Of a DNA stretch of 47,331 nt, positions 1 to 18,946 are shown in pieces. The notes below the pieces were generated by a model that worked only from the letters and a program-made list of their open reading frames with translations, did no database searches and was not told the origin of the DNA. Each line of letters opens with the position of its first letter. Positions within the stretch are counted from its first letter, which is position 1. The position numbers were made by a program, and so were the translations under genes. The DNA is from a candidate division NC10 bacterium CSP1-5 (GTDB lineage: Bacteria; Methylomirabilota; Methylomirabilia; Methylomirabilales; CSP1-5), in the NCBI GenBank assembly GCA_001443495.1, contig LDXR01000019.1:1-47331 (forward strand), in the 5' to 3' direction.

Positions 1-1
1 G

Positions 2-667
2 ACCTTCTTCCTCGACGAGGTGGGCGAGGTGCCGCTCGCCGTCCAGGGGAAGCTGCTTCGGGTCCTCGAGGACGGGGAGTTCGAGCGGGTGGGGGGCGTG
101 AAAACCTTGACCGCCGACGTGCGCCTGATCTGCGCTTCGAACCGCGACCTGAAGCGGGACACGGAACGGGGGCGATTCCGCGAGGACCTGTACTACCGTG
201 TGAGCGGGATCCCGATCCACCTCCCCCCATTGCGGGATCGGCGCGAGGACCTCGTGCCGCTGGCCGAGTTCTTCCTTGCCCGAACGTGCCGGAACCTCGG
301 CGTCGGAAGGAAAACGCTTTCCGACGGGACGGCGGAGGTGCTGGACCGGTACACTTGGCCCGGCAACATCCGCGAGCTGGAGAATGCCGTCGCGCGCGCC
401 GTGGCGCTCTCGGACGAGGATACGCTTACTCCCGCCGACTTGTGCCTCGGGCTCGCGCAGCCGGAGGCGCCGGTCTCCCCGGCCGACATCGAGGGGGAGC
501 GGTTCCACGAATCCGTGCGGGAGCACAAGCGTGCGGTGATCCGACGGGCGATCGCCAAGGCGGGGGGAAGCAAGTCGCGGGCGGCGGAGATCCTCGGGTT
601 GTCGCCGACCTACCTCTCCCGCCTCCTCCGGGTCCTCGGAGTGGAGGGAAAGGGGAACGGCGCATGA
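2..667 (+). CDS. sigma-54-dependent response regulator/activator, C-terminal part (5' end outside window)
   Basis: The reading frame is already open at base 2 and the gene is cut by the window edge. About 221 residues remain. It begins with the Walker B region of an AAA+ domain (TFFLDEVGE), followed by the sensor segment (RLICASNRDL, about residues 40-50) and the FREDLYYRV and LPPLRDR motifs of sigma-54 activators. It ends with a Fis-type helix-turn-helix at about residues 175-215 (GGSKSRAAEILGLSPTYLSRLL). Such proteins hydrolyse ATP to open promoters bound by sigma-54 RNA polymerase. The sensory N-terminus is missing, so the signal cannot be told. The codon use matches the chromosome. Confidence 0.93.
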   Translation, partial: TFFLDEVGEVPLAVQGKLLRVLEDGEFERVGGVKTLTADVRLICASNRDLKRDTERGRFREDLYYRVSGIPIHLPPLRDRREDLVPLAEFFLARTCRNLGVGRKTLSDGTAEVLDRYTWPGNIRELENAVARAVALSDEDTLTPADLCLGLAQPEAPVSPADIEGERFHESVREHKRAVIRRAIAKAGGSKSRAAEILGLSPTYLSRLLRVLGVEGKGNGA

Positions 668-709
668 CGCGGGGGGCCTCCTCGCGGTAAAATCACCTTT
701 CTGCCGCGC

Positions 710-786
710 GCGCCCTTAGCTCAGCTGGATAGAGCGCTTGACTTCGGATCAAGCGGCCGGGGGTTCGAATCCCTCAGGGCGCGCCA
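710..786 (+). tRNA. tRNA-Arg (anticodon UCG)
   Basis: A full 77-nt cloverleaf can be drawn. The acceptor strands GCGCCCU and AGGGCGC pair, followed by discriminator G and an encoded CCA (784-786). The D arm is GCUC/GAGC. The anticodon stem CUUGA/UCAAG encloses the loop CUUCGGA, which gives anticodon UCG (arginine, CGA codons). The T arm is GGGGG-TTCGAAT-CCCTC. It lies 42 bases after the sigma-54 activator and is followed directly by a terminator. Confidence 0.96.
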
Positions 787-797
787 GCAAAAACAAG

Positions 798-826
798 GGG
801 TTACGGTGAGAGCCGTAGCCCTTTTT
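798..826 (+). terminator. rho-independent terminator after tRNA-Arg
   Basis: A 9-bp stem (GGGTTACGG at 798-806 with CCGTAGCCC at 813-821, one G-U pair) has a 6-nt loop and is followed by TTTTT. It lies 11 bases after the tRNA CCA end. From here to 1000 no gene or other structure is visible. Confidence 0.8.
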
Positions 827-1000
827 CTTTGAAAAACGGACAAATGGACGTTTTATAGAAGTTTGGAATGAAAGTCGCTCGCATCTCTTCCCCAAATCAA
901 CCATGCGGAATGGCGAGGACTGGAATTTTCCCTTCCTGCGGAAACCATTTCCTCGAACTATCGACCCGCGAGGGTTATATCTGAATGCGGGAGCCGCCCG

Positions 1001-1477
1001 CTACTTGGCAGGCGGAGGCGCGGCCACCGTCATTCCATGACGCCGGAAAACCTCCATCATCTTCGCGCGGTCAGGCGGTCCACCGGCGGTGGCATTGATT
1101 ACTTCGGCAGCTTCGCGGAAGTACGCGGGGCCCATGATCGCAGGGGATATGACGGCGAGCTGTTTCACATCCTCGCTGCCGAGATTGTCGAAGCGGTGCA
1201 CCGCGCCTCGGGGGATGCACAGTGCCTGCCCGGGACCAACCTCAATAGGCTTGCCATCAACCGTCCAGGTGAGGACGCCCTCGATACCGTAGAGGGTCTC
1301 CTCGTAGGCGTCGTTCTTGTGGGCCGGCGCCGCCAGCTTCTGCCCGGCGGGGACGAGAACCTCGAACACCGACATGTTGTTGTTGGAATCATCGCCAGTG
1401 AGGAGGAACCGGATCCCCAGCGGACCAATATTGATGGTCTCTTCCGAAGGATTGACTCTGGTCATACGCTGCTGCAT
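1001..1477 (-). CDS. cupin-domain protein
   Basis: A 158-residue single-domain cupin. The first cupin motif is visible in the middle (PAHKNDAYEETLYGIEGVLTWTVDG, read in parts) with candidate metal ligands His and Glu. The second is PRGAVHRFDN with His. Cupins of this size are metal-dependent enzymes or small-molecule sensors; the substrate is unknown. The ATG at 1477 is chosen because GAGGGGG lies 5 bases upstream. A longer form starting at 1576 is open and would overlap the small gene upstream in an ATGTTGA junction, so the start is not certain. No partner gene is evident. Confidence 0.8.
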   Translation of the reverse strand: MQQRMTRVNPSEETINIGPLGIRFLLTGDDSNNNMSVFEVLVPAGQKLAAPAHKNDAYEETLYGIEGVLTWTVDGKPIEVGPGQALCIPRGAVHRFDNLGSEDVKQLAVISPAIMGPAYFREAAEVINATAGGPPDRAKMMEVFRRHGMTVAAPPPAK

Positions 1478-1569
1478 AACAGCCCCCTCTTTGAGTAAAG
1501 TTGATCTACTCACCGTCGCCATCCGGAGTTCGAGATTGGCCGGCAGACCGCCCGCCCGGTTCATGGGGG

Positions 1570-1728
1570 TCAACATCCGGTATCCACATCCGCCTTAAGG
1601 AACGCGCGTTCCAGAAACGAATTCAACGCGTCCAGCCACCCGGTGGGGCCGGCGCTCTCCGCCGGGTCCGGGCGCGAGTTCGGGGTCTGTTTCGGGTCGG
1701 TGCTGTTGCTGTCGTCGCTGTAGCTCAT
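1570..1728 (-). CDS. small hypothetical protein
   Basis: A 52-residue frame starting MSYSDDSNSTDPKQ, polar and proline-rich in its first half, with a short amphipathic end (WLDALNSFLERAFLKAD). GGAGAG lies 3 bases before the ATG at 1728; an ATG at 1788 is also open. Its stop overlaps the longest possible start of the cupin gene (ATGTTGA), which is compatible with an operon. No family is recognised. It may not be a gene. Confidence 0.3.
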   Translation of the reverse strand: MSYSDDSNSTDPKQTPNSRPDPAESAGPTGWLDALNSFLERAFLKADVDTGC

Positions 1729-1788
1729 GGACTCTCCGCCGTCAGGACCATGCCTACTCGATTCGCCTGATTCTGCAAAGGAACCCAT

Positions 1789-2153
1789 ATGTCCTTAGGA
1801 TACACGTCCGGAGGGTTTAGATTCCCGTTTCGGACGGTCAAAGTATTAACCTTGTGGGACAACGTGAGGTGGGCATTACGAGGGCCAGGTTTATCGAGTG
1901 GTCTCGATAGCTATCCCCCGCAAAACCAAAAGGTCCCTTGGCCTCGCGCCAGGTTCCCTTTTTCGCGAGATTGGACCGTGGGGCTCACATGATGGCAGCG
2001 GGAATTGGGACCCGCTTAATCTAATTTTTCCAGTTTATTTTGAGTTGATGACTCGATTTCCGTCCGTTCATTTAGAAGACGTTGGGGCGGAATTTCACCA
2101 TTGATTCGGTTATCGGGGGGGAGTGGACCACTTAGCGGCCCAACTCTCCTCTA
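1789..2153. other. gene-free stretch
   Basis: No convincing reading frame on either strand and no RNA gene seen. Composition is more AT-rich in 1990-2100 than in the flanks, marking the transition into the accessory patch that begins at 2154. Confidence 0.5.
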
Positions 2154-2204
2154 TGAGGGGGTGGTGGGGAAACCCGTGGGGGTTCGAGTCCGGAGGACTC
2201 GAAC
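2154..2204 (+). repeat. degenerate copy of tRNA-Leu 3' half, with inverted T-arm (attachment-site-like)
   Basis: Bases from TGAGGGGGTGGTGGGGAAAC onward repeat the sequence at 4113-4145: anticodon-loop end, anticodon-stem 3' strand, variable arm and T-stem of a tRNA-Leu(GAG). Unlike the copy at 4112, the five Gs of the T-stem are intact here. Instead of an acceptor stem and CCA, the T-arm GTTCGAGTCC (2182-2191) is followed, after 3 bases, by its exact inverse GGACTCGAAC (2195-2204), giving a perfect 10-bp hairpin. It marks the left edge of the toxin-antitoxin patch. Confidence 0.65.
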
Positions 2205-2355
2205 AGGCGAGGGCGCCGACCGATGGGCGGGGACACTCCTCTCCCGCATCCCGGAAGTGATTCAGGAATGTCCCCGGTGGTGGATTGACGCCCGGATTGC
2301 CTTTTTTCATGTTTTGGCCACGAAAAACCCGCTGCGGGATTCTGGCTTTCGGTGT

Positions 2356-2700
2356 TCAACTCGCTCGACGTCCCAACCCTTCGGCGATGAGAGATACAAC
2401 CAGGGTGTTCAAGCTCACCCCTTCTTTCTCGGCCTTGGCGGCGAGCTTGGCGTGGAGGCTTTTCGGAACCCGCTGGACCCATTTCCCGCTCAATCCCGCC
2501 GAGGGAGCAGGGACCGGATCTTTGAACTCCTTTGCGGTGGCCAGCCAGGAGCGCAGCGCGTCGGAACCGTTCTCCACCGCCGCCTCGATTGTTTCGCCGT
2601 CGGCGATGCACCCGGGGAGGTCGGGGAATTCAACCAGCCAGCCTCCGCCTTCCGATTTCGAGAGGCGGCGGATCGTGAAGGGGTAATCAATCTTTTTCAT
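2356..2700 (-). CDS. hicB: HicB-family antitoxin
   Basis: 114 residues in two parts. Residues 1-60 are the partial RNase H-like fold typical of HicB (YPFTIRRLSKSEGGGWLVEF, then PDLPGCIADGETIEAAVENG). Residues 72-110 are a ribbon-helix-helix DNA-binding end (VPKSLHAKLAAKAEKEGVSL). HicB binds and neutralises the HicA RNase and represses the operon. The gene follows hicA and overlaps it by 14 bases, so the order is toxin first, as in classical hicAB. The palindrome at 2936-2957 is the likely operator. It is the first module of the patch 2154-4163. Confidence 0.92.
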   Translation of the reverse strand: MKKIDYPFTIRRLSKSEGGGWLVEFPDLPGCIADGETIEAAVENGSDALRSWLATAKEFKDPVPAPSAGLSGKWVQRVPKSLHAKLAAKAEKEGVSLNTLVVSLIAEGLGRRAS

Positions 2701-2929
2701 GGGTCACCTCGTCGGTCAGTTCAATGAACTTTCTCACGTATACCGGCTTGATTGGTTTTCGCGCCGGGACCGTAAGCTTTGCTCCCGAAGGATGGCGGAA
2801 CGTAACGTGACTGGTTTTCGGCTGCCGGTACTCGATTTTATATCTGGCCGCACCGGTTTTGAGGTCCTCGATCCTCCAGCCCGTCGGATTGTTTCGCATC
2901 CTGACGAGGATCTTGGCAGCCACCGTCAT
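2687..2929 (-). CDS. hicA: HicA-family mRNA interferase toxin
   Basis: 80 residues, the usual HicA length, with the dsRBD-like fold: an N-terminal helix (AAKILVRMRNNPTGW), then the catalytic-histidine strand (TSHVTFRHPSG, His near residue 41), then VPARKPIKPVYVRKF. HicA cleaves mRNA independently of translation or with weak ribosome dependence. The ATG at 2929 lies 6 bases inside a perfect inverted repeat upstream, so the transcript leader is very short and autoregulation is likely. It is partner of the HicB at 2356-2700. Confidence 0.9.
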   Translation of the reverse strand: MTVAAKILVRMRNNPTGWRIEDLKTGAARYKIEYRQPKTSHVTFRHPSGAKLTVPARKPIKPVYVRKFIELTDEVTHEKD

Positions 2930-2935
2930 AGGGAA

Positions 2936-2957
2936 ATAGTATCAATGGCGATACTAT
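2936..2957. promoter_or_regulatory. hicAB operator palindrome
   Basis: Perfect 8-bp inverted repeat ATAGTATC-6 nt-GATACTAT just upstream of hicA. Position and symmetry fit binding by the ribbon-helix-helix end of HicB. The role is inferred. Confidence 0.65.
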
Positions 2958-3042
2958 GATTCAAGTGGGTATCGATAATTTTCATGTGGCTCAAATGTGT
3001 CCAATTTCCATGGAAGCCTACGGAAAACTTCCTAAGTCTGCC

Positions 3043-3121
3043 AAATGTGTCATGCTGGCATGGTCGAAACTATTCGATAAGTTAAAGGATTATAGTGCGT
3101 TATAGGGTTGGGGCTGCTTGA
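3043..3121 (+). repeat. attachment-arm repeat, copy A
   Basis: 79 nt that align without gaps to 4037-4115, about 70% identical by eye, sharing blocks such as AAATGTGT, AACTATT, TTATAGGGT and a final GCTTGA or GGCTTGA. In copy B the last bases run straight into the tRNA-Leu anticodon loop; here they run into the second toxin-antitoxin module. Each copy thus closes a unit of about 1 kb. Read as the element-side arm of an integration site; this is inference. Confidence 0.55.
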
Positions 3122-3219
3122 AGGAAATCCGAAAGTGGATCCCGCTCAAATTGATTGGTTTCCATATCGGGTCTAGAGGAAAAATTTCCATGTTGACCCC
3201 GGACCTCGGAGCACTTGTG

Positions 3220-3243
3220 GTTGTATCTCATTTGAGATACAAC
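3220..3243. promoter_or_regulatory. operator palindrome of the second toxin-antitoxin module
   Basis: Perfect 11-bp inverted repeat GTTGTATCTCA-TT-TGAGATACAAC, 34 bases before the antitoxin start at 3278. A further half-like TATCTC follows. It fits binding by the RelB-type N-terminus of the downstream antitoxin. The role is inferred. Confidence 0.65.
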
Positions 3244-3277
3244 TTATCTCGTATATCGAAGAAGGGGGGACTGCCTA

Positions 3278-3727
3278 ATGGCACGGACCGCTATGATCCA
3301 CGCCCGGACGGACGCGGGTCTCAAGGCCGAAGCAGAAGTGATCCTGAAGAGCCTTGGACTCTCGTACACGGAGGCCATCAACCTGTTCCTCAATCAGGTT
3401 CGGATGCGGAAGGGCCTTCCGTTCCCGGTGGAAATCCCTGACTCGGTTTCCATGGCCGTGATCGAGAGAGGACGGCGGCGCTTTATTCTGAAGAAGTCCC
3501 TCAGGGTTCGCATGGGAATCGAGGGAGGCGTCTGGGTCTATGAATATCCTTCCTTGGGAATCCTGGCGTATGGCTCCACGCAGGAGGAGGCGTTGGCTGC
3601 CTTCCGGACGGATTTTGCATCGGCATGGGATCAGGTTGCGAACGAGGTCGATGCGAAGCTCACCCGGGATGCGCGGAGTCTGAAGAAACGGCTCCTTTCC
3701 CTCGTGGATAAGGTCGAGGCCGCCTGA
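3278..3727 (+). CDS. antitoxin with RelB/DinJ-like N-terminus and HicB-like C-terminus
   Basis: 149 residues. Residues 1-55 read as a RelB/DinJ ribbon-helix-helix antitoxin (ARTAMIHARTDAGLKAEAEV, then GLSYTEAINLFLNQV). Residues 70-125 (GIEGGVWVYEYPSLGILAYG, then STQEEALAAFRTDF) resemble the HicB partial RNase H-like domain. The DNA-binding end is therefore N-terminal, the reverse of the HicB at 2356. GAAGGGGGG lies 8 bases before the ATG. Its TGA overlaps the next ATG (ATGA-type, 3727), so antitoxin and toxin are coupled. The likely role is to neutralise the downstream protein and repress from the palindrome at 3220. Confidence 0.75.
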   Translation: MARTAMIHARTDAGLKAEAEVILKSLGLSYTEAINLFLNQVRMRKGLPFPVEIPDSVSMAVIERGRRRFILKKSLRVRMGIEGGVWVYEYPSLGILAYGSTQEEALAAFRTDFASAWDQVANEVDAKLTRDARSLKKRLLSLVDKVEAA

Positions 3728-4014
3728 TGGGTGGACCCCGGAAGACGCGGGCCGTCCGGGCAGCGCTTCTCTCGAAGGGTTTCATCGCCGACGACACTCA
3801 CCACGAGATGTTCTGGCTTGTCGTCGAAGGAAGGAAAACGTCGATCCGTACCCGGATCAGTCACGGTGTCGCGGAGTACGGGGACAACCTTCTGGCACTC
3901 GTTGCCCGTCAGGCCGGTTTGAGCAAGCAGGAGCTATACCGCCTCATCGACTGCCCGATGGATGCCGAAAAACTGAAGCGGCTTTTGGTCGAGCGCGGTA
4001 AAGTTCGTCTATAA
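3727..4014 (+). CDS. probable HicA-like toxin of the second module
   Basis: 95 residues. An N-terminal helix is followed by a strand with paired histidines (KGFIADDTHHEMFWLVVEG), then KTSIRTRISHG. The early helix, the His in a strand and a basic hairpin recall the HicA dsRBD-like fold, but the rest (GDNLLALVARQAGLSKQELY, then DCPMDAEKL) is different and longer. It follows the antitoxin with one-base overlap. The toxin call rests mainly on gene pairing, size and this weak resemblance. Ribonuclease activity is inference. Confidence 0.6.
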   Translation: MGGPRKTRAVRAALLSKGFIADDTHHEMFWLVVEGRKTSIRTRISHGVAEYGDNLLALVARQAGLSKQELYRLIDCPMDAEKLKRLLVERGKVRL

Positions 4015-4036
4015 CCGAAAGTTCCCTGAATCCAAT

Positions 4037-4115
4037 AAATGTGTAATTCCGGCATTGTTATAACTATTTGAATTAATAAAATATTATGGGATTTTATAGG
4101 GTGGGAGCGGCTTGA
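4037..4115 (+). repeat. attachment-arm repeat, copy B
   Basis: Counterpart of 3043-3121, 79 nt, no gaps. It is AT-rich (TTAATAAAATATTATGGGAT region) and ends at CTTGA, where the tRNA-Leu 3' half starts. This is the layout expected of an integrated element end: element arm, then crossover in the anticodon loop, then restored tRNA tail. Confidence 0.6.
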
Positions 4116-4163
4116 GGGGGTGGTGGGGAAACCCGTGGGGTTCGAATCCCCCCTTCGGCACCA
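4112..4163 (+). repeat. 3' half of tRNA-Leu(GAG): putative attachment site, not a whole tRNA
   Basis: 52 nt reading as anticodon loop TTGAGGG (anticodon GAG), stem strand GGTGG, a leucine-type long variable arm, T arm ending TTCGAATCCCCC, acceptor strand CTTCGGC, discriminator A and CCA. The 5' half (which should end CCACC) is absent; the upstream sequence is the AT-rich arm repeat. One G of the T-stem is lost relative to 2154. Integrases often recombine within tRNA genes and leave such 3' halves; the assignment to an att site is inferred. Confidence 0.75.
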
Positions 4164-4272
4164 TCGCAATAACCAAGGAGAGGTCCACAACGAGAGTGCT
4201 GCGGACGCGTGGATCGCGGATACGGTACATCGTGACGATTCTCGTTGACGGGAAACAACCCTCGGCAGTAAC

Positions 4273-4292
4273 ATATAAATAGCTGCTCATAT
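4273..4292. promoter_or_regulatory. possible ArsR-type operator
   Basis: Imperfect 20-bp inverted repeat ATATAAATAG-CTGCTCATAT, seven of ten positions symmetric, 14 bases before the ArsR gene at 4307. ArsR/SmtB regulators often bind AT-rich imperfect repeats over their own promoter. Weak evidence. Confidence 0.35.
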
Positions 4293-4306
4293 AAGGACAC
4301 TCTCAT

Positions 4307-4675
4307 ATGGATCCAAACATGGAGCACATACAGATCTTCTTCAAGCTCATTGGAGACTCGAGTCGGCTGAAGATCCTCTCGAGCATCGGAACGGTCGAGA
4401 AGACTGTTTCGGAGATCATCGGAGAGACGGGTCTGCCCCAGACGCTGGTCTCCTTCCATCTGAAGATTCTGAGGGAGCATCAGATCGTGCAAGCTACTCG
4501 AAAGGGAGGTCCGTTCGTCTATTACCGTCTCCAGGACCCCTCCCTCGTGAACCTGCTGGATGCTTGCGACACATACGCAAGAAGGCTCAAAGGGGGAGCG
4601 ATGGGGGACGTGCCCGATTTCGAATGGCCCCCTTGGAAGGTGATGTGCCGGATGATGCGCCGTGGGCGGCGATAG
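4307..4675 (+). CDS. ArsR-family winged-helix repressor
   Basis: 122 residues with an ArsR fold: GDSSRLKILSSIG, then the recognition region (GLPQTLVSFHLKILREHQIV) and the beta wing (RKGGPFVYYRLQD). ArsR members sense metals, metalloids or redox state and repress nearby genes. No clear CxC metal site is seen in the recognition region; the only Cys are in the last 45 residues. The tail (PWKVMCRMMRRGRR) is basic. AAGGA lies 9 bases before the ATG. Downstream are a second winged-helix protein and a SHOCT membrane protein, probably in the same operon. Confidence 0.88.
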   Translation: MDPNMEHIQIFFKLIGDSSRLKILSSIGTVEKTVSEIIGETGLPQTLVSFHLKILREHQIVQATRKGGPFVYYRLQDPSLVNLLDACDTYARRLKGGAMGDVPDFEWPPWKVMCRMMRRGRR

Positions 4676-4734
4676 GCAGCCTTGCGATCAAAACCCCTGT
4701 TTCCGGCAAGGGAAATCACGGGAAGGGAGGAGTC

Positions 4735-5049
4735 ATGGATCCTCGTGAGATGATGAAGGGCATGATGGGAGAGGGTTTCAACCCGATGGAGATGTGCAAA
4801 AACATGATTGGTTCCATCACCAAGTCGGCGGAGATGGCGGCCTATACCACCCCCGAACTTCGGGCGCGGTTCGAGGAGTGGCTCGGCCAGATCGAGACCG
4901 AGATCCTCGAATTTCTCAAAGGCCGGGATGCGGTTGCCCCGGAAGAGGTGGGAGAACATTTCAAGGTGTCGAAGGAGAGCGTTGTCTTTCTGCTTTCCAA
5001 ACTAGCCCGCGAAGGGAAGATCAAAATCAGCGCCGGAGAACGTCATTGA
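4735..5049 (+). CDS. small winged-helix-like protein, unrecognised family
   Basis: 104 residues. The first 30 are rich in Met (MDPREMMKGMMGEGFNPMEM, then CKNMIG). The middle is helical (ELRARFEEWLGQIETEILEF). Residues 65-100 look like a winged helix (DAVAPEEVGEHFKVSKESVV, then LLSKLAREGKIKI). GGAGG lies 5 bases before the ATG at 4735. The 3' end overlaps the next gene as TTGA. The Met-rich start might bind a soft metal, but that is speculation. It could be a regulator or adaptor for the ArsR and membrane protein beside it. Confidence 0.7.
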   Translation: MDPREMMKGMMGEGFNPMEMCKNMIGSITKSAEMAAYTTPELRARFEEWLGQIETEILEFLKGRDAVAPEEVGEHFKVSKESVVFLLSKLAREGKIKISAGERH

Positions 5050-5444
5050 GGGGCTCCCGGACCTGTTTTGCGGTATGGGTCGCGGCAGTGGTCCTGCTGC
5101 TGTTTCTTGGGATGGCGTATGAAGGTATTTATGGGAGGCATTATACGCATTCCTCTGCGCCTACTTGGGGAGGTTTGCCGATGGTGCCATGGATGGTTTG
5201 GGGAGGGGGAATGTGGATTTTCCCTTTCATCGGACTCTTTGTCTTTTTATTCATGATTTTCTTTAAGTTCAACCGGGTCTTTACCGGGAGCGGGCCTTTC
5301 TGCGGATGGGGAGGGCAGGGTGGCGGGAGCTCCGGCCCTCAATCCCCGCTGGACATTCTCAAGATCCGGTATGCCAAGGGAGAGATCACCCGGGAGGAAT
5401 TCGAGCGGATGAAGAAAGACATTTCCGAAGGCGGTGGACCATAG
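5046..5444 (+). CDS. membrane protein with C-terminal SHOCT domain
   Basis: About 132 residues. One transmembrane helix at residues 8-24 (VWVAAVVLLLFLGMAYEG) and a second at about 50-75 (GMWIFPFIGLFVFLFMIFF), with an aromatic and Gly-rich loop between. A Gly-rich linker precedes a SHOCT domain at about 100-130 (SPLDILKIRYAKGEITREEF). SHOCT domains are short modules often involved in oligomerisation at the membrane. No ATG fits; TTG at 5046 is chosen because it overlaps the upstream stop (TTGA) and has GGAG upstream. Function unknown. Confidence 0.75.
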   Translation: MRGSRTCFAVWVAAVVLLLFLGMAYEGIYGRHYTHSSAPTWGGLPMVPWMVWGGGMWIFPFIGLFVFLFMIFFKFNRVFTGSGPFCGWGGQGGGSSGPQSPLDILKIRYAKGEITREEFERMKKDISEGGGP

Positions 5445-5483
5445 GATGACGGGCGGCGGTCAAGAAGGCCACCGTCTTGCACC

Positions 5484-5511
5484 GGGTGCATCCTTTGCGC
5501 GGATGCAACCC
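5484..5511. terminator. hairpin between convergent genes
   Basis: GGGTGCATCC (5484-5493), 7-nt loop, GGATGCAACC (5501-5510): ten pairs with one mismatch. It sits between the SHOCT gene (+) and the universal stress gene (-), so it could stop transcription from both sides. No T tract on the plus strand. Confidence 0.45.
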
Positions 5512-5512
5512 C

Positions 5513-6208
5513 TTACGGATGTCCCGGGACCACGAGAACCGGGATCGCGGACCGATGGACCACGTGGTTTGCCACCCGCCCCAGGAAAGCCTCCGCCATG
5601 TATCCCCGCCCCTGGCCGCCGATGACGAGAATGCTGTAGCTCCCTTTCCGGATCTTCTCCACGATTAACGGGCCCGGGCGGCCGAATTCCACCTCCTTGT
5701 TCACCACACTGGCCCCCCACTCCTTGAGTCGCACTTCGAGTGCATCCAGCCGCTCCCGGTCGATCCGGTTGAATTCATCGAGACGGTGCGCGAGGTGGGG
5801 TTGAATCCTCACCGGGTCTTGCACGTGGAAGAGGGTCCCCTCCGGAGGGTGGGTGTGCGCCACGACATGTTCCAGGTAATGGAAGGCCCGCTCGGCGGGT
5901 TCGGAGTAATCGGTGGCGAACAGCGGGTGGCGGAAAATGTCGCCGCAGAGGACTTCGCACTTCTTTTCCCCCTTCTCTCCTTCCAGGATCGTGATCGGGA
6001 TCAGCAGAACCAGTTGTTTCTCCTTGTCCTTGAGGAGTGGTTCGACAAGGTTTTTCATCGAGATGTAAAGCCCTCCCACGTCCCGGACGTTCATCACATG
6101 GATAAGGGTTGCGCTTTCCGCTCCCGCAGTCCGAAGGGGACCCACGCAGCGCAGCAGACACATGGACGCGTAAGACAGGTCCATGGCGATCAGCAGGTTC
6201 TTGAACAT
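5513..6208 (-). CDS. universal stress protein, tandem UspA with a shortened first domain
   Basis: 231 residues. The N-terminus (MFKNLLIAMDLSYASMCLLR) begins a UspA domain, but only about 85 residues precede the start of a second one (FRHPLFATDYSEPAERAFHY). The second is complete and ends with the nucleotide-site-like segment GGQGRGYMAEAFLGRVANHV and SAIPVLVVPGHP; the usual Ser/Thr after the last Gly is Arg. Tandem Usp proteins are normally about 280-300 residues, so the first domain seems to have lost its nucleotide-binding half. The ATG at 6208 is chosen over an upstream extension of low quality. It lies just after the ACR3 gene on the same strand and may be cotranscribed. Confidence 0.85.
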   Translation of the reverse strand: MFKNLLIAMDLSYASMCLLRCVGPLRTAGAESATLIHVMNVRDVGGLYISMKNLVEPLLKDKEKQLVLLIPITILEGEKGEKKCEVLCGDIFRHPLFATDYSEPAERAFHYLEHVVAHTHPPEGTLFHVQDPVRIQPHLAHRLDEFNRIDRERLDALEVRLKEWGASVVNKEVEFGRPGPLIVEKIRKGSYSILVIGGQGRGYMAEAFLGRVANHVVHRSAIPVLVVPGHP

Positions 6209-6233
6209 CGTACCCTCATTCCTCCGAGCGAGA

Positions 6234-7310
<1,077 letters not shown>

Positions 7311-7324
7311 GGAGATCCCATGTT

Positions 7325-7346
7325 ACAATTACATATCGCCAGTTGT
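7325..7346. promoter_or_regulatory. likely operator between acr3 and arsR
   Basis: Imperfect inverted repeat with arms ACAATT and AGTTGT (five of six symmetric) in the short AT-rich gap between the divergent acr3 and arsR genes. It is a natural site for the ArsR product to control both. Inference from position. Confidence 0.5.
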
Positions 7347-7364
7347 CAATTTGATGGAGGTGCC

Positions 7365-7796
7365 ATGTCCCTGCGGGATTACGAAGTGGTGATGAAGTCG
7401 GTGGCCGATCCGACACGGGTCCGGATCCTCAAGCTCCTCGAAGCGGGGGAAATGTGCGTATGCCAGGTCGTCGCCGTCCTCGAACTCAGCCAGTCCACGG
7501 TCTCAAAGCATCTCTTTCTGCTGAAGATGGCCGGGCTCGTCCGGGAGCGGCAGGAGAAGAAGTGGGTCCATTACGCCCTCGCCGGTTCCGGAGGATCCCC
7601 GTACGCAAGGAAGATGCTCGCCTCTTTGAAGGGATGGCTCAACGACGATCCGGTGGTCGAGCGGGACCAAAAACGGGGATCGCTGGCCCGGGAAATCGGG
7701 CCTGCCGCGATTTGCGAGCGGGGGATGACGATCCCGGCACGGCGCACCGCGGCGTTCTCCCCGGCCCCGCGCAAAGTCGCAGCCGGATCGAAATGA
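7365..7796 (+). CDS. arsR: arsenic-responsive repressor ArsR
   Basis: 143 residues. Winged helix of ArsR: DPTRVRILKLLEAGEMCVCQ carries the CVC pair that binds As(III) or Sb(III) in E. coli-type ArsR, followed by LELSQSTVSKHLFLLKMAGL and the wing (RQEKKWVHYAL). GGAGG lies 6 bases before the ATG at 7365. It is divergent from acr3 and followed by a CxxC protein and an ArsP-like permease, so it probably represses both directions. The last 40 residues are an unmatched, basic, Ala/Pro-rich tail. Confidence 0.93.
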   Translation: MSLRDYEVVMKSVADPTRVRILKLLEAGEMCVCQVVAVLELSQSTVSKHLFLLKMAGLVRERQEKKWVHYALAGSGGSPYARKMLASLKGWLNDDPVVERDQKRGSLAREIGPAAICERGMTIPARRTAAFSPAPRKVAAGSK

Positions 7797-7809
7797 CGCG
7801 GAGGAATCC

Positions 7810-8055
7810 ATGGAGATCGCCATCCTAGGCACCGGTTGTCCCAAGTGCAGGCAGACCGCCGAGGTGGTCCGCCAGGCCGTCGAACAGGCGGGCGTCGACG
7901 CCACGATCCACAAGGTCGAAGACATCAAGGAAATCATGAAGTTCAAAGTGATGACGACTCCGGCCGTCGCCTTCGACGGCCAGGTGAGGATTTCCGGCAA
8001 GGTTCCGACGGTGGACGAGGTCAAAGCGCTCCTGGCGCACGATGGAAAAGCATGA
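7810..8055 (+). CDS. thioredoxin-like small disulfide protein (MTH895/TM0996 type)
   Basis: 81 residues with a thioredoxin fold in minimal form: MEIAILGTGCPKCRQTAEVV has the active CxxC (residues 10 and 13). The cis-proline region is MTTPAVAFDGQVR. It starts 13 bases after arsR and overlaps the permease by ATGA. Such proteins are often encoded beside DUF318/ArsP permeases and may reduce or pass metalloid thiol ligands to them; the exact partner reaction is not known. Confidence 0.88.
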   Translation: MEIAILGTGCPKCRQTAEVVRQAVEQAGVDATIHKVEDIKEIMKFKVMTTPAVAFDGQVRISGKVPTVDEVKALLAHDGKA

Positions 8056-9185
8056 GCGAGGGCTGTGAAAAAAATCCCGCCGGAGGATCCGGGCCGGGGG
8101 CGAGCTGCTGCGAAGGAGCGGGACCCGGGGAAGCGTCGGTTACGACGGCGGGGGTCGATCCCCGGACGACCGCGAAATATTTCGGCAGCGGGGTCCTTGC
8201 CCTTGGAATCTGGTGGCTGGTGTACCAGGGTCTTTTCCCCTTCGCGAAGTGGTTTACCTTCTCCCTGCTGACCCTGACGCCGGGGTCGCATCTGACATCG
8301 GCCGTACAGTTTTTCGTATTCGAGGCCCCGAAGATCCTGATGCTCCTCACCCTGGTCGTCTTTGCAGTTGGGGTCGTCCGGTCCTTCTTCACGCCGGAGA
8401 GGGCCCGTCGGATCCTCGCCGGGAAGCGGGAGTCGGCGGGGAACATATTGGCGGCGTTGCTGGGCGTCGTCACCCCGTTCTGCTCCTGTTCGGCGGTGCC
8501 CCTTTTCATCGGTTTCGTCACTTCCGGCGTGCCGCTCGGCGTGACGTTCTCCTTCCTCGTTTCCGCGCCCATGGTCAACGAGATTGCCCTCGTTCTCCTC
8601 TACGGCCTGTTCGGCTGGAAGATCGCCGCCGTCTACGCGGGGACGGGGCTTGGGATCGCCATGATTTCCGGGTGGGTCATCGGGCGCCTGGGGATGGAGA
8701 GCCACGTGGAGGAGTGGGTCTACGCCGCCCCGGCGGGCGGCGACGAGGAAGGCGAGGTCCTGAACGTCTCCTGGCGGGACCGCGTTCACTTCGGACTCGA
8801 TTCCGTCCGGGACATAATCGGGAAAGTGTGGCCGTACGTGCTGGCCGGGATTGCCGTCGGCGCCGGAATCCACGGCTACGTGCCGGAGAATTTCATGGCG
8901 GGGATCATGGGGTCGGGAGCGTGGTGGTCCGTTCCGCTGGCCGTCGTTATCGGCATCCCCATGTACTCCAACGCGGCGAGCATCATCCCGGTCGTGCAGG
9001 CCCTCCTCGGGAAGGGGGCGGCGCTGGGGACGGTGCTGGCGTTCATGATGTCGGTGATCGGGCTCTCCCTGCCGGAGATGATCATCCTCCGGAAGGTTCT
9101 CAAGGTCCGCTTGATCGCTACATTCGCCGGGGTTGTCGGGATGGGGATCCTGATCGTGGGGTATCTGTTCAATGTCCTGCTGTGA
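8052..9185 (+). CDS. ArsP-like permease (DUF318 family)
   Basis: 377 residues, about eight to ten membrane helices. After a Cys-rich soluble start (SEGCEKNPAGGS, then ASCCEGAG) comes the first helix (VLALGIWWLVYQGLF). The family motif TPFCSCSAVPLFIGFV is at about residue 140, and the second repeat has GIPMYSNAASIIPVVQ near 315. ArsP exports trivalent organoarsenicals such as methylarsenite; other members are of unknown substrate. ATGA overlap with the thioredoxin-like gene shows coupling. The last gene of the ars operon. Confidence 0.9.
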   Translation: MSEGCEKNPAGGSGPGASCCEGAGPGEASVTTAGVDPRTTAKYFGSGVLALGIWWLVYQGLFPFAKWFTFSLLTLTPGSHLTSAVQFFVFEAPKILMLLTLVVFAVGVVRSFFTPERARRILAGKRESAGNILAALLGVVTPFCSCSAVPLFIGFVTSGVPLGVTFSFLVSAPMVNEIALVLLYGLFGWKIAAVYAGTGLGIAMISGWVIGRLGMESHVEEWVYAAPAGGDEEGEVLNVSWRDRVHFGLDSVRDIIGKVWPYVLAGIAVGAGIHGYVPENFMAGIMGSGAWWSVPLAVVIGIPMYSNAASIIPVVQALLGKGAALGTVLAFMMSVIGLSLPEMIILRKVLKVRLIATFAGVVGMGILIVGYLFNVLL

Positions 9186-9261
9186 TGTGAGGAAGACGAA
9201 GACGTTGGAGATCGAGTGGAAGCATCAGGACAAGGAAGGGGCGACCTGTCTCTTTTCATGG

Positions 9262-9431
9262 GGCTCTGCAGGGACTCGAACCGGCGAGGGCGCCGACACC
9301 CGAAGCCGCGCCGCCCTGCATTTGGCCGATGCCACCCGATGATAGTTGCGTGGCATTTGCGAGCAGCTTGCTGCGAAGCAAGTGGCGTGACCGCCGAGGC
9401 TTAAGGCGGGCGACCCCCTCCTCCGGCACCA
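9262..9431 (+). repeat. tRNA-tail-like structured remnant beside an integrase fragment
   Basis: No gene lies in 9186-9438. Bases 9272-9297 repeat 2195-2220 with one mismatch. Short hairpins follow: GCCAC/GTGGC (9331-9354), GCAGC/GCTGC (9363-9374) and CCGCC/GGCGG (9391-9409). The end, CCCCCTCCTCCGGCACCA, reads as a T-stem strand, acceptor strand, discriminator and CCA (9429-9431) of a tRNA. No cloverleaf can be closed, since the 5' acceptor is missing. Read as an attachment-site relic; a structured RNA is possible. Confidence 0.45.
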
Positions 9432-9438
9432 TTATTTT

Positions 9439-9675
9439 TCAGGCAGTTACGTGCCCCATAGTATTCGCGGAAGGGTCGTTTTGGTCGACTGTGCCACTAA
9501 ACTGTGCCAGTAGACTGCTTGTCTGATTGATTGCACGGTCGATTACCGCGACCGCGCCCTGCAAATGCCCCGGCGAAAGATGGCTGTAGCGTTTGGTCAT
9601 GCTGGCCGTTTTGTGACCAAGGATCGTCCCTATCGCCAGCAGACTGACTCCGCCCATCGCCATGAATGATGCCGC
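9439..9675 (-). pseudogene. tyrosine recombinase (integrase), C-terminal fragment
   Basis: Only the last part of a phage-type integrase is left: the catalytic GH (ILGHKTASMTKRY) and the nucleophile Tyr in TKRYSHLSP. Upstream the frame still reads AASFMAMGGVSLLAI, matching family members, then meets a TGA at 9685-9687, and no Arg-containing core or N-terminal domain is seen. It lies 8 bases from the tRNA-like CCA end at 9431, the usual position of an integrase gene beside its att site. Function is lost. Confidence 0.82.
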
Positions 9676-9793
9676 ATTAAAAACTCACGCGATACAATTG
9701 CTGGCGGCAGAATCTCATCACGACTTGGAACCGTGAAGCGGGTAGGCGGGGCCGGAATATTTTACTCGGAAGAAGTATTTTCACAATAATAGA

Positions 9794-10126
9794 CTAACGG
9801 GACTTCTCCTTCTTCATCGACTTTTTCTTGTCGGATGATTTGTATCCTCCATGACCGTGCCTTGATTGATTCCTCCTTCGTGGACCGAGAACCTTCTCCA
9901 CCAGTGCGTCAAGGTCTATGGCATCGGCACGAAACCTTTCCATATAGGCGTCAAAGCCTGACTTGAATATGATTTGTCGTCCATCCGGTCGATAGTAGAC
10001 AATTTGAGATTGCCGCCCCCTCAACCCTCTGCGTGACAGCCAGAGATAGGCATTCGCAAGGGGAAGAGATAAATACCCGTCGCTTGTAGCGGTTATGTGA
10101 CGGGGGCGAATTTCTTGCTCATCCAT
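9794..10126 (-). CDS. hypothetical protein of the integrative element
   Basis: 110 residues beginning MDEQEIRPRHITATSDGYLS. It has a mixed alpha-beta region (LPLANAYLWLSRRGLRGRQS, then IVYYRPDGRQIIFKSG) and a very basic Lys-rich tail (SSDKKKSMKKEKSR). It overlaps the excisionase-like gene by 8 bases and precedes the integrase remnant, so it was probably part of the xis-int operon. No domain is recognised; a DNA-binding accessory role would fit the tail but is a guess. Confidence 0.65.
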   Translation of the reverse strand: MDEQEIRPRHITATSDGYLSLPLANAYLWLSRRGLRGRQSQIVYYRPDGRQIIFKSGFDAYMERFRADAIDLDALVEKVLGPRRRNQSRHGHGGYKSSDKKKSMKKEKSR

Positions 10127-10322
10127 GTCTTGAACTCTCGCCCGTGGTGAACGTCTTGTGCGCCCGGATGAATGCAACGATCTCCTCCCCGTCGAACCGG
10201 ATGACACGCCCGAACTGCACGGATGGCAGTTTTCCCTTCTTCGCCATGATGTATACGTGGGACTTAGACACCTGGAATCTCTTCGCAACCTGGGCTGCCG
10301 TGAGCGGTGCCTTCGTCATCAC
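10119..10322 (-). CDS. excisionase-like helix-turn-helix protein
   Basis: 67 residues: TAAQVAKRFQVSKSHVYIMA then KKGKLPSVQFGRVIRFD, the pattern of HTH_17/MerR-type excisionases (AlpA/Xis). The C-terminus reads EEIVAFIRAHK. GGAGAGGTGAAG lies before the ATG. Xis proteins bend DNA and direct integrase towards excision. The gene heads a minus-strand set with 9794 and the integrase fragment at 9439, which together look like the decayed recombination module of an integrative element. Confidence 0.85.
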   Translation of the reverse strand: MMTKAPLTAAQVAKRFQVSKSHVYIMAKKGKLPSVQFGRVIRFDGEEIVAFIRAHKTFTTGESSRHG

Positions 10323-10408
10323 TTCACCTCTCCGTGACCATTCACACCGTAATATATCAAGAACTCTCTAACGTCCATACGAAGACGTTCCGCAAGGAGG
10401 AGTCAACG

Positions 10409-10531
10409 ATGAAGGTCGAACTGACGTTCCCGGAGGAGTTCGCAGAGCAGGAAGCGAAGGCGAAGAAGGTCGGCCTGTGGCAAGAGAAGAATCCGGTATC
10501 GCCGTGGGAGTTCAGGTATCCTCCACGGTAA
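10409..10531 (+). CDS. 40-residue hypothetical protein
   Basis: MKVELTFPEEFAEQEAKAKK followed by a Trp- and Pro-containing end (WQEKNPVSPWEF). The near-perfect ribosome site AAGGAGG is 8 bases before the ATG, which is the main support. It is divergent from the excisionase-like gene. No family recognised. Confidence 0.5.
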   Translation: MKVELTFPEEFAEQEAKAKKVGLWQEKNPVSPWEFRYPPR

Positions 10532-10664
10532 CGATCCCTTGCAACCTTCCTCGCTGAAAGGCACATTTCATCCATAATCTTCCTTTAACCATACCCACCC
10601 ATCGACAGTTCTTCATCCCGTGAACCTCCAACCGGGGATGCGATGAAGAAGGCAATCAAGTTTA

Positions 10665-10802
10665 TTGGAGGATCACCTGACGTTTACCGACTGGCTCCGA
10701 GGGCAGATCAACGCCTATCTCGCCGAGAAGGAACCGAAGTGGCCGCTGCGCACGAGGGAGGACGTCAAGTCACGCAAGCGCAAACCCGGAAAGAGGGCGT
10801 GA
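10665..10802 (+). CDS. 45-residue hypothetical protein, possible
   Basis: A frame starting at TTG (10665) reads EDHLTFTDWLRGQINAYLAE then KEPKWPLRTRED and a basic end (VKSRKRKPGKRA). Amino-acid use looks protein-like, better than the overlapping frame from the ATG at 10643. AAGAAGG lies 11 bases before the TTG, which is far. The last 40 bases belong to the repeat described at 10761. Confidence 0.35.
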   Translation: MEDHLTFTDWLRGQINAYLAEKEPKWPLRTREDVKSRKRKPGKRA

Positions 10803-10810
10803 GGGATGGG
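10761..10810 (+). repeat. leader repeat, copy 1 of 4 (upstream of 10806)
   Basis: GACGTCAAGTCACGCAAGCG and on to GGGCGTGAGGGATGGG. It aligns with 11739-11787 over its whole length with only scattered changes (GTCAAG, CGCAA, CCGGAAA, GGGCGTGAGGGATGGG). It ends in the start codon of the membrane-protein gene at 10806. Confidence 0.6.
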
Positions 10811-11066
10811 AGTCTGGGAAAATACAGGTATCTGTGTAATTGCGGCGATCTTGTTTTATGAGAAAGGTCATCATGTTTTGTTTTGGTCTGCTGTAATCAC
10901 CGGAATCGTTGCGTTCGGGAGCCACGGCATAATGCAAAACTATCTGCAGCGAAAGGGATACGGCGACTCGAGAAAAATACCAAATTGGTTGTCTGCATTA
11001 AATATGCTTGCAACATTGATAGGTATTGGCCTACTTATCACGGCAATAGTATTCCGGTACAGGTAA
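10806..11066 (+). CDS. small membrane protein, unrecognised
   Basis: 86 residues with three hydrophobic stretches: GICVIAAILFYEKG (7-18), HHVLFWSAVITGIVAFGSHG (22-41) and LSALNMLATLIGIGLLITAI (63-82), a basic loop between the last two. It starts four bases after the preceding small frame, with GAGGG just before ATG. It is AT-richer than the core genome, as expected of transferred DNA. No family recognised. Confidence 0.6.
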   Translation: MGVWENTGICVIAAILFYEKGHHVLFWSAVITGIVAFGSHGIMQNYLQRKGYGDSRKIPNWLSALNMLATLIGIGLLITAIVFRYR

Positions 11067-11070
11067 ACGC

Positions 11071-11114
11071 GAAAGGAGGTGAGATAAATGGGCGTCAAGG
11101 TGCGGGAGCGCAAA
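11071..11114 (+). repeat. leader repeat, copy 2 of 4 (upstream of the Sel1 gene)
   Basis: GAAAGGAGGTGAGATAAATG then GGCGTCAAGGTGCGGGAGCG CAAA. It holds a strong ribosome site and would encode MGVKVRERK, which resembles the first residues of many tyrosine recombinases. The first 34 bases match 12074-12107 with two changes. Confidence 0.65.
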
Positions 11115-11117
11115 GGG

Positions 11118-11805
11118 ATGGATCGCTATCTGACGTTCGGTTTTCTCATCCTCATGTTCTCTATATCAATGACTGTTTCAGCGTTCGGGGGACAATTCGA
11201 GGATGCTACTGCCGCCTATGAGCGGGGCGACTATGCAACAGCATTTAGATTGATGAAGCCATTGGCCGAAAAAGGGGACGCCAAGGCCCAACACAACCTC
11301 GGCGTCATGTACGATTACGGCCGAGGCGTCCCGCAGGATTACACCAAGGCATTGAAGTGGTACCGAATGTCTGCTGAGCACGGAATCCCCGAAGCCCAGC
11401 ATAACCTCGGCCTCATGTACTACCAAGGTCAGGGCGTACCGCAGAACTACGCCGAGGCGGCGAAAGTGGTACCGAAGGGCCGCCGGGCAGGGAATGGCCG
11501 ATTCTCAGGTGAACCTCGGCATTATGTATTACCAAGGCCAAGGTGTATCGCGGGACTATGTTCTGGCGCACATGTAGCTCAATCTTGCGGCTTCACAGTA
11601 CCCTGCGTCAGTAAGAGAGAACCTGTATGATGCTGTCCATTATAGAGATATCGTCAACTCCCTGATGACCCCCGCCCAGATCGCTGAGGCGCAACGGTTG
11701 GCACGGGAGTGGAAGCCGAAGAAGGAGGGAAAATATTGGAAGTCAAGGTCCGAGAACGCAAGCCTGAAAAGGGGCGTGAGGGATGGGGATGTAGATCATG
11801 AATAA
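11118..11805 (+). pseudogene. Sel1-repeat secreted protein, broken by a frameshift and a stop
   Basis: Residues 1-24 form a signal peptide (MDRYLTFGFLILMFSISMTV SAFG). Sel1 repeats follow (AKAQHNLGVMYDYGRGVPQD, then AQHNLGLMYYQGQGVPQNYA). An extra A in the AAA at 11463-11465 shifts the frame; in the +1 frame the third repeat resumes (KWYRRAAGQGMADSQVNLGI). A TAG at 11575-11577 then replaces the expected Trp of HMWLNLAAS, after which the frame stays open to 11805. Intact Sel1 proteins bind partner proteins in the envelope; this copy is dead unless the base calls are wrong. Confidence 0.8.
11736..11801 (+). repeat. leader repeat, copy 3 of 4, with a possible 21-aa peptide
   Basis: The repeat proper spans 11721-11787. 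A TTG at 11736 after AAGGAGGG opens EVKVRERKPEKGREGWGCRS, whose stop overlaps the ATG at 11798 (ATGA). The VKVRERKP word is again like an integrase N-terminus. It may act as a short leader peptide for the next gene or be a mere relic. Confidence 0.45.
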
Positions 11806-12064
11806 AAAGCAGAAATACATATTGTTGGTGGGACTTTTCATAATCGCAGCTATGGGCCTTTTACCTCCGTGGTATTTCAGTTTCGAAGGAAGTGTTGTTG
11901 TAAATAGACCTGGGCCTTATGCTTTTATTTTTTCACCACCAACGTACAAACCGTATGGCGTCGAAGGGGCGCCCCATATAGATACCTCTCGCCTAATGGT
12001 GCAATGGGCCATCGTCGTGGGCATTTGCTCTGGTTTATTTATTTTTCTGAAGGACAAGGAATAA
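11798..12064 (+). CDS. small membrane protein with two helices
   Basis: 88 residues: first helix YILLVGLFIIAAMGLLPPWY (residues 7-26), a 40-residue loop rich in Pro and aromatic residues (PYAFIFSPPTYKPYGVEG), second helix MVQWAIVVGICSGLFIFLKD (67-86). Codon use is AT-rich compared with the core genome. It is coupled by ATGA to the peptide frame in leader copy 3. Function unknown; it looks like cargo of the integrative patch. Confidence 0.6.
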   Translation: MNKKQKYILLVGLFIIAAMGLLPPWYFSFEGSVVVNRPGPYAFIFSPPTYKPYGVEGAPHIDTSRLMVQWAIVVGICSGLFIFLKDKE

Positions 12065-12107: not shown

Positions 12108-12994
12108 ATAAAAAAAGGCCCGCACCTGTATGATGGTATTCCTTTCATGACGGACGATGAAGCGTCTTCAATCCGGTCCTGTTTTCAGGGAAGCAAGAAG
12201 AAATTTATAACTATGTTCTGGCAATATCAATATAAAAATAAGGGAACATATTTTAATAGAATAACAGTATTGACTGACCGTCCTCACTTCCTCCCCCCCC
12301 TACACGGAGCGGATAGGGTGCGGAAGGTATGGAATTCGAACAGTGAAAGAAAGAAAAAGCATGCAATAAAAAGGAAATTGTTCTCTTTGCCTATCTTGCC
12401 TCCGGGATGTTTTATAAAATATCATTGCATTTTCAATCAGATAATGATTTTACCCATGTCCCGTACAATGGCATTCTCATTGCTTTACGTATTCTCCGGT
12501 GGCCGCGTTGGGTGAGTGGGTTACTGGATGGTGTTTCGCTGGAATTTCAATCCAACGAACCAAACGACGCTTGGGTGGATGGCGATTCCAGGGTACCGAA
12601 CATCATAGAAGGCCCACTTCACTGCCACCCCTATGGGCGGCTCCAGAGAAGAGCCGCCCATCCATTTTGGAGCCGGCCCCCACGAAATCAATTTTCCTAT
12701 AATTTTTGCCTTCAACCAGGAAGACGCAGCAGCGAATGCAGGACAATCCTTGACTGCAACCCAAACCTTCGCGTAGTTCAGGCGCCGGCCGCCCCTCGTC
12801 TTTCCTTCCTTCCCCTCCGAAATGGTCACATGTCCCCTTGAGTCGTCCATCGTCCTGTTCCTCTTCCCCCACCGGGTCGTATTTCCTATGATGAAAACTG
12901 GCAGCGGCAAGAACCTGCGCAAGGAAAGGAAGGCCACTCTGCGACGGAAAGAGGTCGAAGGGGAAAGGGGAATCGGCAACAACGGGTACAGCCC
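12108..12994. other. stretch without a supported gene
   Basis: 12150-12480 is AT-rich with a run of nine C at 12291-12300 and shows no convincing frame. 12521-12850 on the minus strand is open for 109 residues (start MDDSRGHVTISEGKEG) but has no ribosome site and no family resemblance. From about 12860 the composition returns to that of the core genome. No RNA gene seen. Confidence 0.4.
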
Positions 12995-17764: not shown

Positions 17765-18946
17765 ATGCCCGGTAGGTCTCATGTCGAATTCGTCCAAACC
17801 CTCGCAATCGCCTTTTTCCTGCTCGTTCTCGCTCCTTTTTCTTGCTCCCAGGAGGGGGTTACCCCCGCTTCTCACCCCGCACCGACCGGGACGGCGAAAA
17901 ACATCATCCTGTTCATTGGGGACGGCATGGGATTCGAACAGGTCAAGGCGGCGGGGATGTATGAGGGCGGGGCGGCCGGAACCTTGTCCTTCGAAGCCTT
18001 CCCCTACCGAGGTTCCACAAAGCCCCTTAACGCGGAAGGAGGCGTGACCGACTCGGCCGCCTCGGCGACCGCCATGGCCACGGGGAACAAGGTCAGCAAC
18101 GGGGTGATCAGCATGTCCATCCCCGGGAACGGAAATCCGTCGGTAACCGTCCTGGAGCTCCTCAAGGCGGAAGGGAAAAGCACCGGGCTGGTGACCACCA
18201 CATTCGTTACCCACGCCACGGCGGCCGCCTTTGGCGCCCACGAACCGGACCGAAACAACTACGTAAACATCGCCGGTGACTATCTACGCGATGCGCGGCC
18301 CAATGTGCTGTTTGGAGGAGCCAAGTACGTAACGAAACCCGCTGCCGCAGCGGCCGGATACACGGTCGTGGCAGACCGGGCAGGGCTGCAAGCCCTCGAC
18401 ACGGAAACAGAATCGATGGTCTCGGGACAGTTCGGCGGGGACCACATGCCCTACGAACTCGACGGGCTGGGGGGGCTACCGCACCTATCGGAGATGACGC
18501 TTGCGGCGCTTCATATCCTGGACAATGACCCCGACGGTTTCTTCCTCATGGTCGAGGGGGGGCGCATCGACCACGCATGCCACGCAAATGACATCGAGCG
18601 GACCATCCGGGAGACGATCGAGTTCTCCCGGGCGGTCGCCAAGGCCGTCGAATGGGGCAGGAACCGGTCCGATGTCTTGATCATCGTCACCGCGGATCAC
18701 GAGGCGGGGGGATTGCAGGTCCTTGCGAACAACGGGATGGGGATTGTGCCCACCGTCACATGGGGCACCACGGGGCATACCGCGAGCGAAATACCGGTCT
18801 ACGGATGGGGGGCAGGCGCCGCATCGATCTCGGGATCCATGGAAACCACGGACATATTCCGTATCCTCATGCAGTCGTCCGCCCTTCCCTCCGTCGTTTT
18901 TTCCTTCCTTTCGATGCGATCTCCAGCATCTTTTCATCCGCCTTGA
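17765..18946 (+). CDS. alkaline phosphatase (PhoA family), exported
   Basis: About 393 residues. An N-terminal hydrophobic signal (FVQTLAIAFFLLVLAPFSCS) with a Cys at its end may be a signal peptide or lipoprotein signal. Catalytic and metal motifs are all present: IGDGMG, the Ser nucleophile in VTDSAASATAMATG, EGGRIDHACHAND, TADHEAGG and TGHTASEIPVY. It hydrolyses phosphate monoesters in the periplasm with two zinc and one magnesium ion. The start is uncertain (17690 and 17735 are also open). Its last 80 bases overlap the convergent threonine synthase gene. Confidence 0.9.
   Translation: MPGRSHVEFVQTLAIAFFLLVLAPFSCSQEGVTPASHPAPTGTAKNIILFIGDGMGFEQVKAAGMYEGGAAGTLSFEAFPYRGSTKPLNAEGGVTDSAASATAMATGNKVSNGVISMSIPGNGNPSVTVLELLKAEGKSTGLVTTTFVTHATAAAFGAHEPDRNNYVNIAGDYLRDARPNVLFGGAKYVTKPAAAAAGYTVVADRAGLQALDTETESMVSGQFGGDHMPYELDGLGGLPHLSEMTLAALHILDNDPDGFFLMVEGGRIDHACHANDIERTIRETIEFSRAVAKAVEWGRNRSDVLIIVTADHEAGGLQVLANNGMGIVPTVTWGTTGHTASEIPVYGWGAGAASISGSMETTDIFRILMQSSALPSVVFSFLSMRSPASFHPP

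Follow-up and report, generated by a model that had tools for sequence, protein, structure and literature searches.

Diverged repeats beside tRNA-Leu(GAG) fragments as probable attachment arms of small toxin-antitoxin-bearing integrative elements

The window (the whole analysed stretch of 47,331 nt) carries two copies of a diverged repeat, A and B, which are very probably the eroded right-end arms of neighbouring integrative elements stacked as a tandem array on tRNA-Leu(GAG). Copies of this arm share common ends and the same tRNA junction, occur in tandem arrays, and are accompanied by an associated integrase and by adjacent toxin-antitoxin (TA) genes. Mobility of the units was inferred, since neither an excised circle nor a pair of empty and occupied strains was seen.

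Copies A (3043-3121) and B (4037-4115) align without gaps and share 56 of 79 bases (70.9%). In 5000 dinucleotide-preserving shuffles the mean identity was 23.9 (sd 3.9) and the maximum 39, so that no shuffle came near the observed value and the gap-free repeat of about 70% identity, which the initial annotation had recognised by eye, is borne out. Local gapped alignment of the surroundings of both copies yielded a score of 76 versus a maximum of 41 in 1000 shuffles, and A and B form the top pair of 79-mers within positions 1-12000 of the window, excepting a local tandem repeat at 11272-11543. The latter has a period of about 108 bp and lies inside a Sel1-repeat gene. As had been noted, CTTGA represents the last five bases of both copies, and copy B indeed ends in the anticodon loop of a tRNA-Leu: C4111 is the final base of the anticodon stem, and TTGA provides the first four loop bases of a tRNA-Leu(GAG) 3' half. 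The proposed extent of 79 nt describes a real inner part of the arm, but the whole homologous unit is longer, comprising about 125-135 bp; it begins near 2987 in copy A and near 3987 in copy B, and the two differ by a small indel. No tRNA half follows the end of copy A; the window contains a second tRNA-Leu 3' fragment at the left edge of unit 1.

Judged by its sequence, the contig is a contaminant of its bin and its true source is Deltaproteobacteria bacterium CSP1-8. Of the two ftsA genes in the bin, the foreign one lies in the window, and CSP1-8 contigs match the window at 99.7-99.9% identity. NCBI leaves CSP1-8 among the unclassified Deltaproteobacteria; in GTDB it presumably belongs to the class formerly named MBNT15 and now Deferrimicrobia. 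A search for the repeat in the bin's own class was unsuccessful because the contig is a contaminant, and the class of CSP1-8 was therefore searched. The window and the CSP1-8 contig part exactly at the 3' end of a tRNA-Leu (window 9380-9432; contigs C25 and C20 of G095, loci L180 and L209). Past this point the array of the window joins the sequence downstream of tRNA-Leu(CAA), and on C25 an RHH-PIN unit and a third arm follow instead. This divergence may be due to either strain recombination or an assembly chimera. The third arm (copy C) is not found in the window and belongs to the other assembly, CSP1-8.

BLAST of 13 relatives revealed homologous sequence adjoining the same tRNA half. An arm profile built from 11 BLAST-found stretches recovered 18 full-length arms plus one partial arm in 10 of 26 genomes of the CSP1-8 class, a group of little-known soil and groundwater bacteria. 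A sample of 395 genomes from across the phylum contained no convincing arm; the matches outside this class were weak and did not exceed about 20 bits. On contigs that extend beyond the arm, nearly all arms directly precede a tRNA-Leu(GAG) 3' half and break at one and the same anticodon-loop base. Exceptions are copy A, a copy in G109 (core lost, tRNA half 26 bp further on), copy C of CSP1-8, whose core is degenerate, and copies truncated at the end of a contig. Since nearly all copies abut this 3' half, the repeat is considered to be the attachment arm at the right end of elements whose integration site is tRNA-Leu(GAG). The identical orientation and loop-base end of the 18 full-length copies in 10 related genomes support its earlier assignment to the element side, and conservation of the arm is strongest at the anticodon-loop end. 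Intact tRNA-Leu(GAG) genes of other genomes of the class have the stem/loop sequence ..GCCATC-TTGAGGG-GGTGG..; the CSP1-8 assembly, by contrast, yielded no intact copy of this gene. Displaced 3' halves of this tRNA mark element boundaries in the window (end of unit 2) and at L182, L185, L230, L231, L232 and other loci, and at L230 and L186 the intact tRNA is followed by an element left end. Unrelated right-end sequences stand on the same 3' half at L183, L194 and L195, and several element families therefore use the tRNA-Leu(GAG) site.

In related elements the tRNA half is followed by a terminator (GGGAATCCGG...CCGGGTTCCCTTTTTTCGT), and an element would therefore be able to rebuild a working tRNA 3' end. 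The left-end motif CCGACTGGCTCATTTGTGGCTCGCGG comes after the terminator. The right arm opens with CCGAGTGGCTCATTTGTGGCT, a 20-bp motif that also occurs at the left end. Repeats resembling integrase arm sites, which had been expected inside the arm, are present: in addition to the 20-bp motif, the CTACGGAA box occurs three times in six well-kept arms, at positions -110, -100 and -80 relative to the loop and with a spacing of 10 and 20 bp, the phased direct repeats typical of integrase arm sites. A total of 25 CTACGGAA boxes compares with 1.2 in shuffles, a test which is not independent, as the boxes were chosen from the alignment. By analogy, the boxes and the 20-bp motif are candidate arm sites to which an integrase would bind.

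The arrangement of whole units can be followed in G112 (L230), where seven junctions are distributed over about 14.5 kb downstream of an intact tRNA-Leu(GAG) (18645-18558). Here tRNA 3' halves are located at 17773, 12629, 11398, 10049, 5429 and 4079. The arm precedes three of these halves, and exact or near left-end motifs occur at five units (18473, 12492, 10961, 9919, 5159). Some units of about 1 kb consist of a left end, a TA pair and a right arm only (C25 of CSP1-8, 9984-10990; G112, 5403-4079). They keep both attachment ends and have neither integrase nor transfer genes, as is characteristic for cis-mobilizable elements (CIMEs), which are usually far larger than about 1 kb.

A TA gene lies at most 68 bp away from 15 of the 18 full-length arms. 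Seven families are represented, assigned by Pfam or NCBIfam or by DNA similarity to assigned copies: HicBA (3), HigBA (5, including one gene end), RHH-PIN (2), AbiE (2) and one each of HipBA, Phd-PIN and a RelB-like pair. The partial arm at L187 follows a MazE/Fic-DOC pair. Full-length arms without TA genes are L185a (PDDEXK protein and an unassigned gene), L184 (none seen) and a G112 arm with an integrase remnant. The HicBA cassette of the window has counterparts in L187 (87% identity) and L189 (84%). The value of 87% for HicBA compares with 79% for ftsA (CSP1-8 and SKS1.bin8), and RHH-PIN cassettes are 86% identical versus 78% for ftsA (CSP1-8 and WY2.bin79). In different species the same TA cassettes stand among different neighbours. 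Together with the similarity exceeding that of ftsA, this favours horizontal movement of the shared cassettes without proving it. In some copies the linkage of TA genes and arm may result from shared descent.

The unit at L185 (G099) encodes a full-length tyrosine recombinase of 389 aa (PF00589, E 9e-29), which is the only full-length member of its family found in the 26 genomes of the class. Its N-terminus contains a short DUF433-like stretch, as if fused to a neighbouring DUF433 gene fragment (L185:4518-5687; cf. L187:3267-3491). Within the class, other relatives with at least 60% identity are confined to arrays in G099, G114 and G112, and in two genomes other than G099 such a relative adjoins this arm. 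Integrase remnants are present at L230 and L231, and at L185, L230 and L231 the 5' end of the integrase gene faces the right arm. An integrase of the L185 family was found neither in the units of the window nor in CSP1-8, and the units of CSP1-8 are therefore either fossils or reliant on an integrase supplied in trans. The integrase family rules out an integron cassette array with attC cassettes: the L185 protein scores 81 bits against the integron model TIGR02249 (cut-off 265). Assignment to pdif modules was rejected on account of 94 and 92 bits against the XerC and XerD models (cut-offs 335 and 330), and a Dehalococcoides-type ssrA island on account of the target, tRNA-Leu(GAG), and of the integrase, which belongs to PF00589.

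The features of the window are summarised in Table 1. Unit 1 consists of the tRNA fragment, a terminator remnant, HicBA and copy A, and unit 2 of a RelB-type antitoxin and its 95-aa partner, closing in copy B. The partner gene gave no family match; its predicted structure is of low confidence (pLDDT 59) and a fold search with it returned no match. Beyond the tRNA half of copy B another left-end remnant is followed by arsenic genes; this remnant, TCGCAATAACCAAGGAGA, has the same start as the corresponding sequence at L185, L186, L191 and L230. The cargo preceding A (HicBA) differs from that preceding B (RelB-like pair), the whole arms diverge by roughly 45%, and each of the two copies is nearer to arms on other contigs than to the other one. 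A recent duplication is excluded by these differences, which support the earlier view that A and B probably arose by separate insertions; the branching order in a tree of the arms is not settled. As copy A has lost its tRNA half and the arm boxes of copy B are eroded, the window's own units are probably fossils. A deletion as the origin of the missing half, with CTTGA directly joined to the terminator-like AGGAAATCCG, was rejected, as only an 11-nt match was obtained, not above shuffles. An integrase remnant of another site is located at 9433-9700 of the window, downstream of the tRNA-Leu(CAA) end.

Table 1 Positions of the units' components in the window
Feature	Position	Strand	Evidence
Left edge of unit 1: fragment of tRNA-Leu(GAG) 3' half reaching from anticodon loop to T loop	2154..2191	+	95% identical to tRNA half at 4113-4149
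Left-end segment, terminator-like, follows tRNA half in related elements	2281..2318	+	Local alignment 47 vs maximum 26, 300 shuffles
HicB-like antitoxin, unit 1 cargo	2356..2700	-	Pfam PF05534, PF15919
HicA-like toxin, unit 1 cargo	2687..2929	-	Pfam PF07927, E 7e-5, under curated cut-off
Right arm copy A; 3043-3121 is the inner part, ends CTTGA	2987..3121	+	Profile match m2-139
RelB/DinJ-type antitoxin with C-terminal extension, unit 2 cargo	3278..3727	+	Pfam PF04221; TIGR02384 above cut-off
Candidate toxin gene (95-aa partner), overlapping the antitoxin stop codon	3727..4014	+	Toxin role suggested by position only
Right arm copy B	3987..4111	+	Profile match m4-143
tRNA-Leu(GAG) 3' half, anticodon loop to CCA	4112..4163	+	Cf. 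intact relatives, ..GCCATC-TTGAGGG-GGTGG..
TCGCAATAACCAAGGAGA, remnant of sequence after tRNA 3' end in related elements	4164..4181	+	Start-anchored match, 28 vs shuffle maximum 26

According to the proposed mechanism, a dedicated tyrosine integrase would bind the arm boxes and strand exchange would take place within the 7-nt loop TTGAGGG. Integration would swap the 3' half of the chromosomal tRNA for the copy provided by the element, whereby the tRNA would stay functional and the old half would be left at the far end of the element. Repeated integration, or shared att sites, could then give rise to tandem arrays. Units of about 1 kb carrying only TA genes would need an integrase supplied in trans. 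The TA pairs would likely serve as an anti-loss device that penalises the loss of a unit, as mosAT does for SXT.

The neighbourhood of TA genes at 15 of the 18 full-length arms would also be expected if the repeat served TA regulation, as a conserved operator or regulatory region, and stood beside tRNA fragments by chance. We regard this as highly improbable, since it is largely refuted by the constant tRNA junction. Furthermore, the TA genes belong to seven non-homologous families in either orientation (HicBA pointing away from the arm, HigBA toward it), the arm lies downstream of the stop codon in many units, its conservation peaks at the anticodon-loop end, and the G112 arm at 12629 is accompanied by an integrase remnant and not by TA genes. 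The abutment of other right ends on the same tRNA half (L183, L194, L195) is compatible with degenerate repeats of an unrelated insertion sequence or prophage sharing the target site. This explanation is hardly credible, as no transposase was found, a search of phage and plasmid DNA revealed nothing beyond ordinary tRNA-Leu, and two conserved arm patterns had zero matches in 2.9 million viral contigs. A group I intron in the anticodon loop was rejected, because there is no 5' tRNA half upstream and Rfam finds no intron.

It is also conceivable, albeit unlikely, that the arms were captured once and that the array grew by homologous recombination or duplication between tRNA fragments, with no site-specific integration being involved. 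Such growth would agree with the damage seen at several junctions, with the exact divergence of window and CSP1-8 contigs at a tRNA-Leu 3' end and with the lack of the integrase in most genomes. However, cargo is unrelated between units of the same array, the arrays are accompanied by a specific integrase family, and the phased boxes and the matching left-end motif persist.

Integrative elements using tRNA-Leu(GAG), the reading preferred here, have counterparts among known systems. Islands of the anticodon-loop class in tRNA genes, including small tandem arrays, are already known from Islander, and the units described here share with them the presumed crossover in the anticodon loop, the displaced tRNA 3' half, the occasional tandem arrangement and, at L185, a tyrosine integrase (PMC4383910). 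In contrast, many of our units are only about 1 kb long and lack an integrase, and most have a TA pair just inside the right arm. Of 2083 anticodon-centred islands in Islander only 4 arrays contain three or more, and its filters discard anything shorter than 2 kb or devoid of an integrase, so that many of the integrase-less units of about 1 kb would be rejected (PMC4383910). Long tandem arrays bounded by repeats of an RNA-gene 3' end also occur in the ssrA islands of Dehalococcoides, about half of which have no integration module and were read as cis-mobilizable (PMC3146451). Those islands depend on a serine recombinase, ssrA and large reductive-dehalogenase cargo, whereas a tyrosine integrase, tRNA-Leu(GAG) and TA genes are found here (PMC3146451). 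As far as they are described in work cited in PMC3146451, CIMEs formed by tandem accretion (ICESt1 type) likewise keep both ends, have no integrase and lie adjacent to complete relatives; our units differ in their size of only about 1 kb and have no known conjugative parent. The pdif (dif) modules of Acinetobacter plasmids are also small, shuffled, often TA-bearing and bounded by recombination sites, but they use the XerCD of the host and short dif sites instead of arms of about 130 bp, a tRNA core and a dedicated integrase (PMC13141974, PMC12907356). A TA pair promoting maintenance of an integrative element, the role proposed here, is known from mosAT of SXT; that is one TA system in an ICE of about 100 kb, whereas here the TA pair stands beside the attachment arm and is sometimes the entire cargo (PMC2654960).

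New compared to known islands are the TA-only mini-units and the regular adjacency of TA genes and arm. Tentatively, and with some reserve, we consider an integron-like economy, in which a tRNA-Leu(GAG) integrase may move units of about 1 kb (standard left end, TA pair and standard right arm) in trans and, throughout a bacterial class, stack them in shuffled order. If this were true, TA pairs would travel as minimal units equipped with docking ends of a standard type, instead of only riding on large elements, which bears on the spread of TA systems and their clustering on chromosomes. Island finders requiring an integrase and at least 2 kb would miss such units, and similar arrays may therefore be common. 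The arms supply exact sequences for tests of integrase binding and excision.

Besides the arms, a repeat of about 200 bp was observed, with a degenerate tRNA 3' end in inverted orientation at its start and a direct tRNA 3' end at its close. It is located beside tRNA-Leu at L190, L196, L197, L230 and L233, and in the window at 2195-2220 and 9272-9297.
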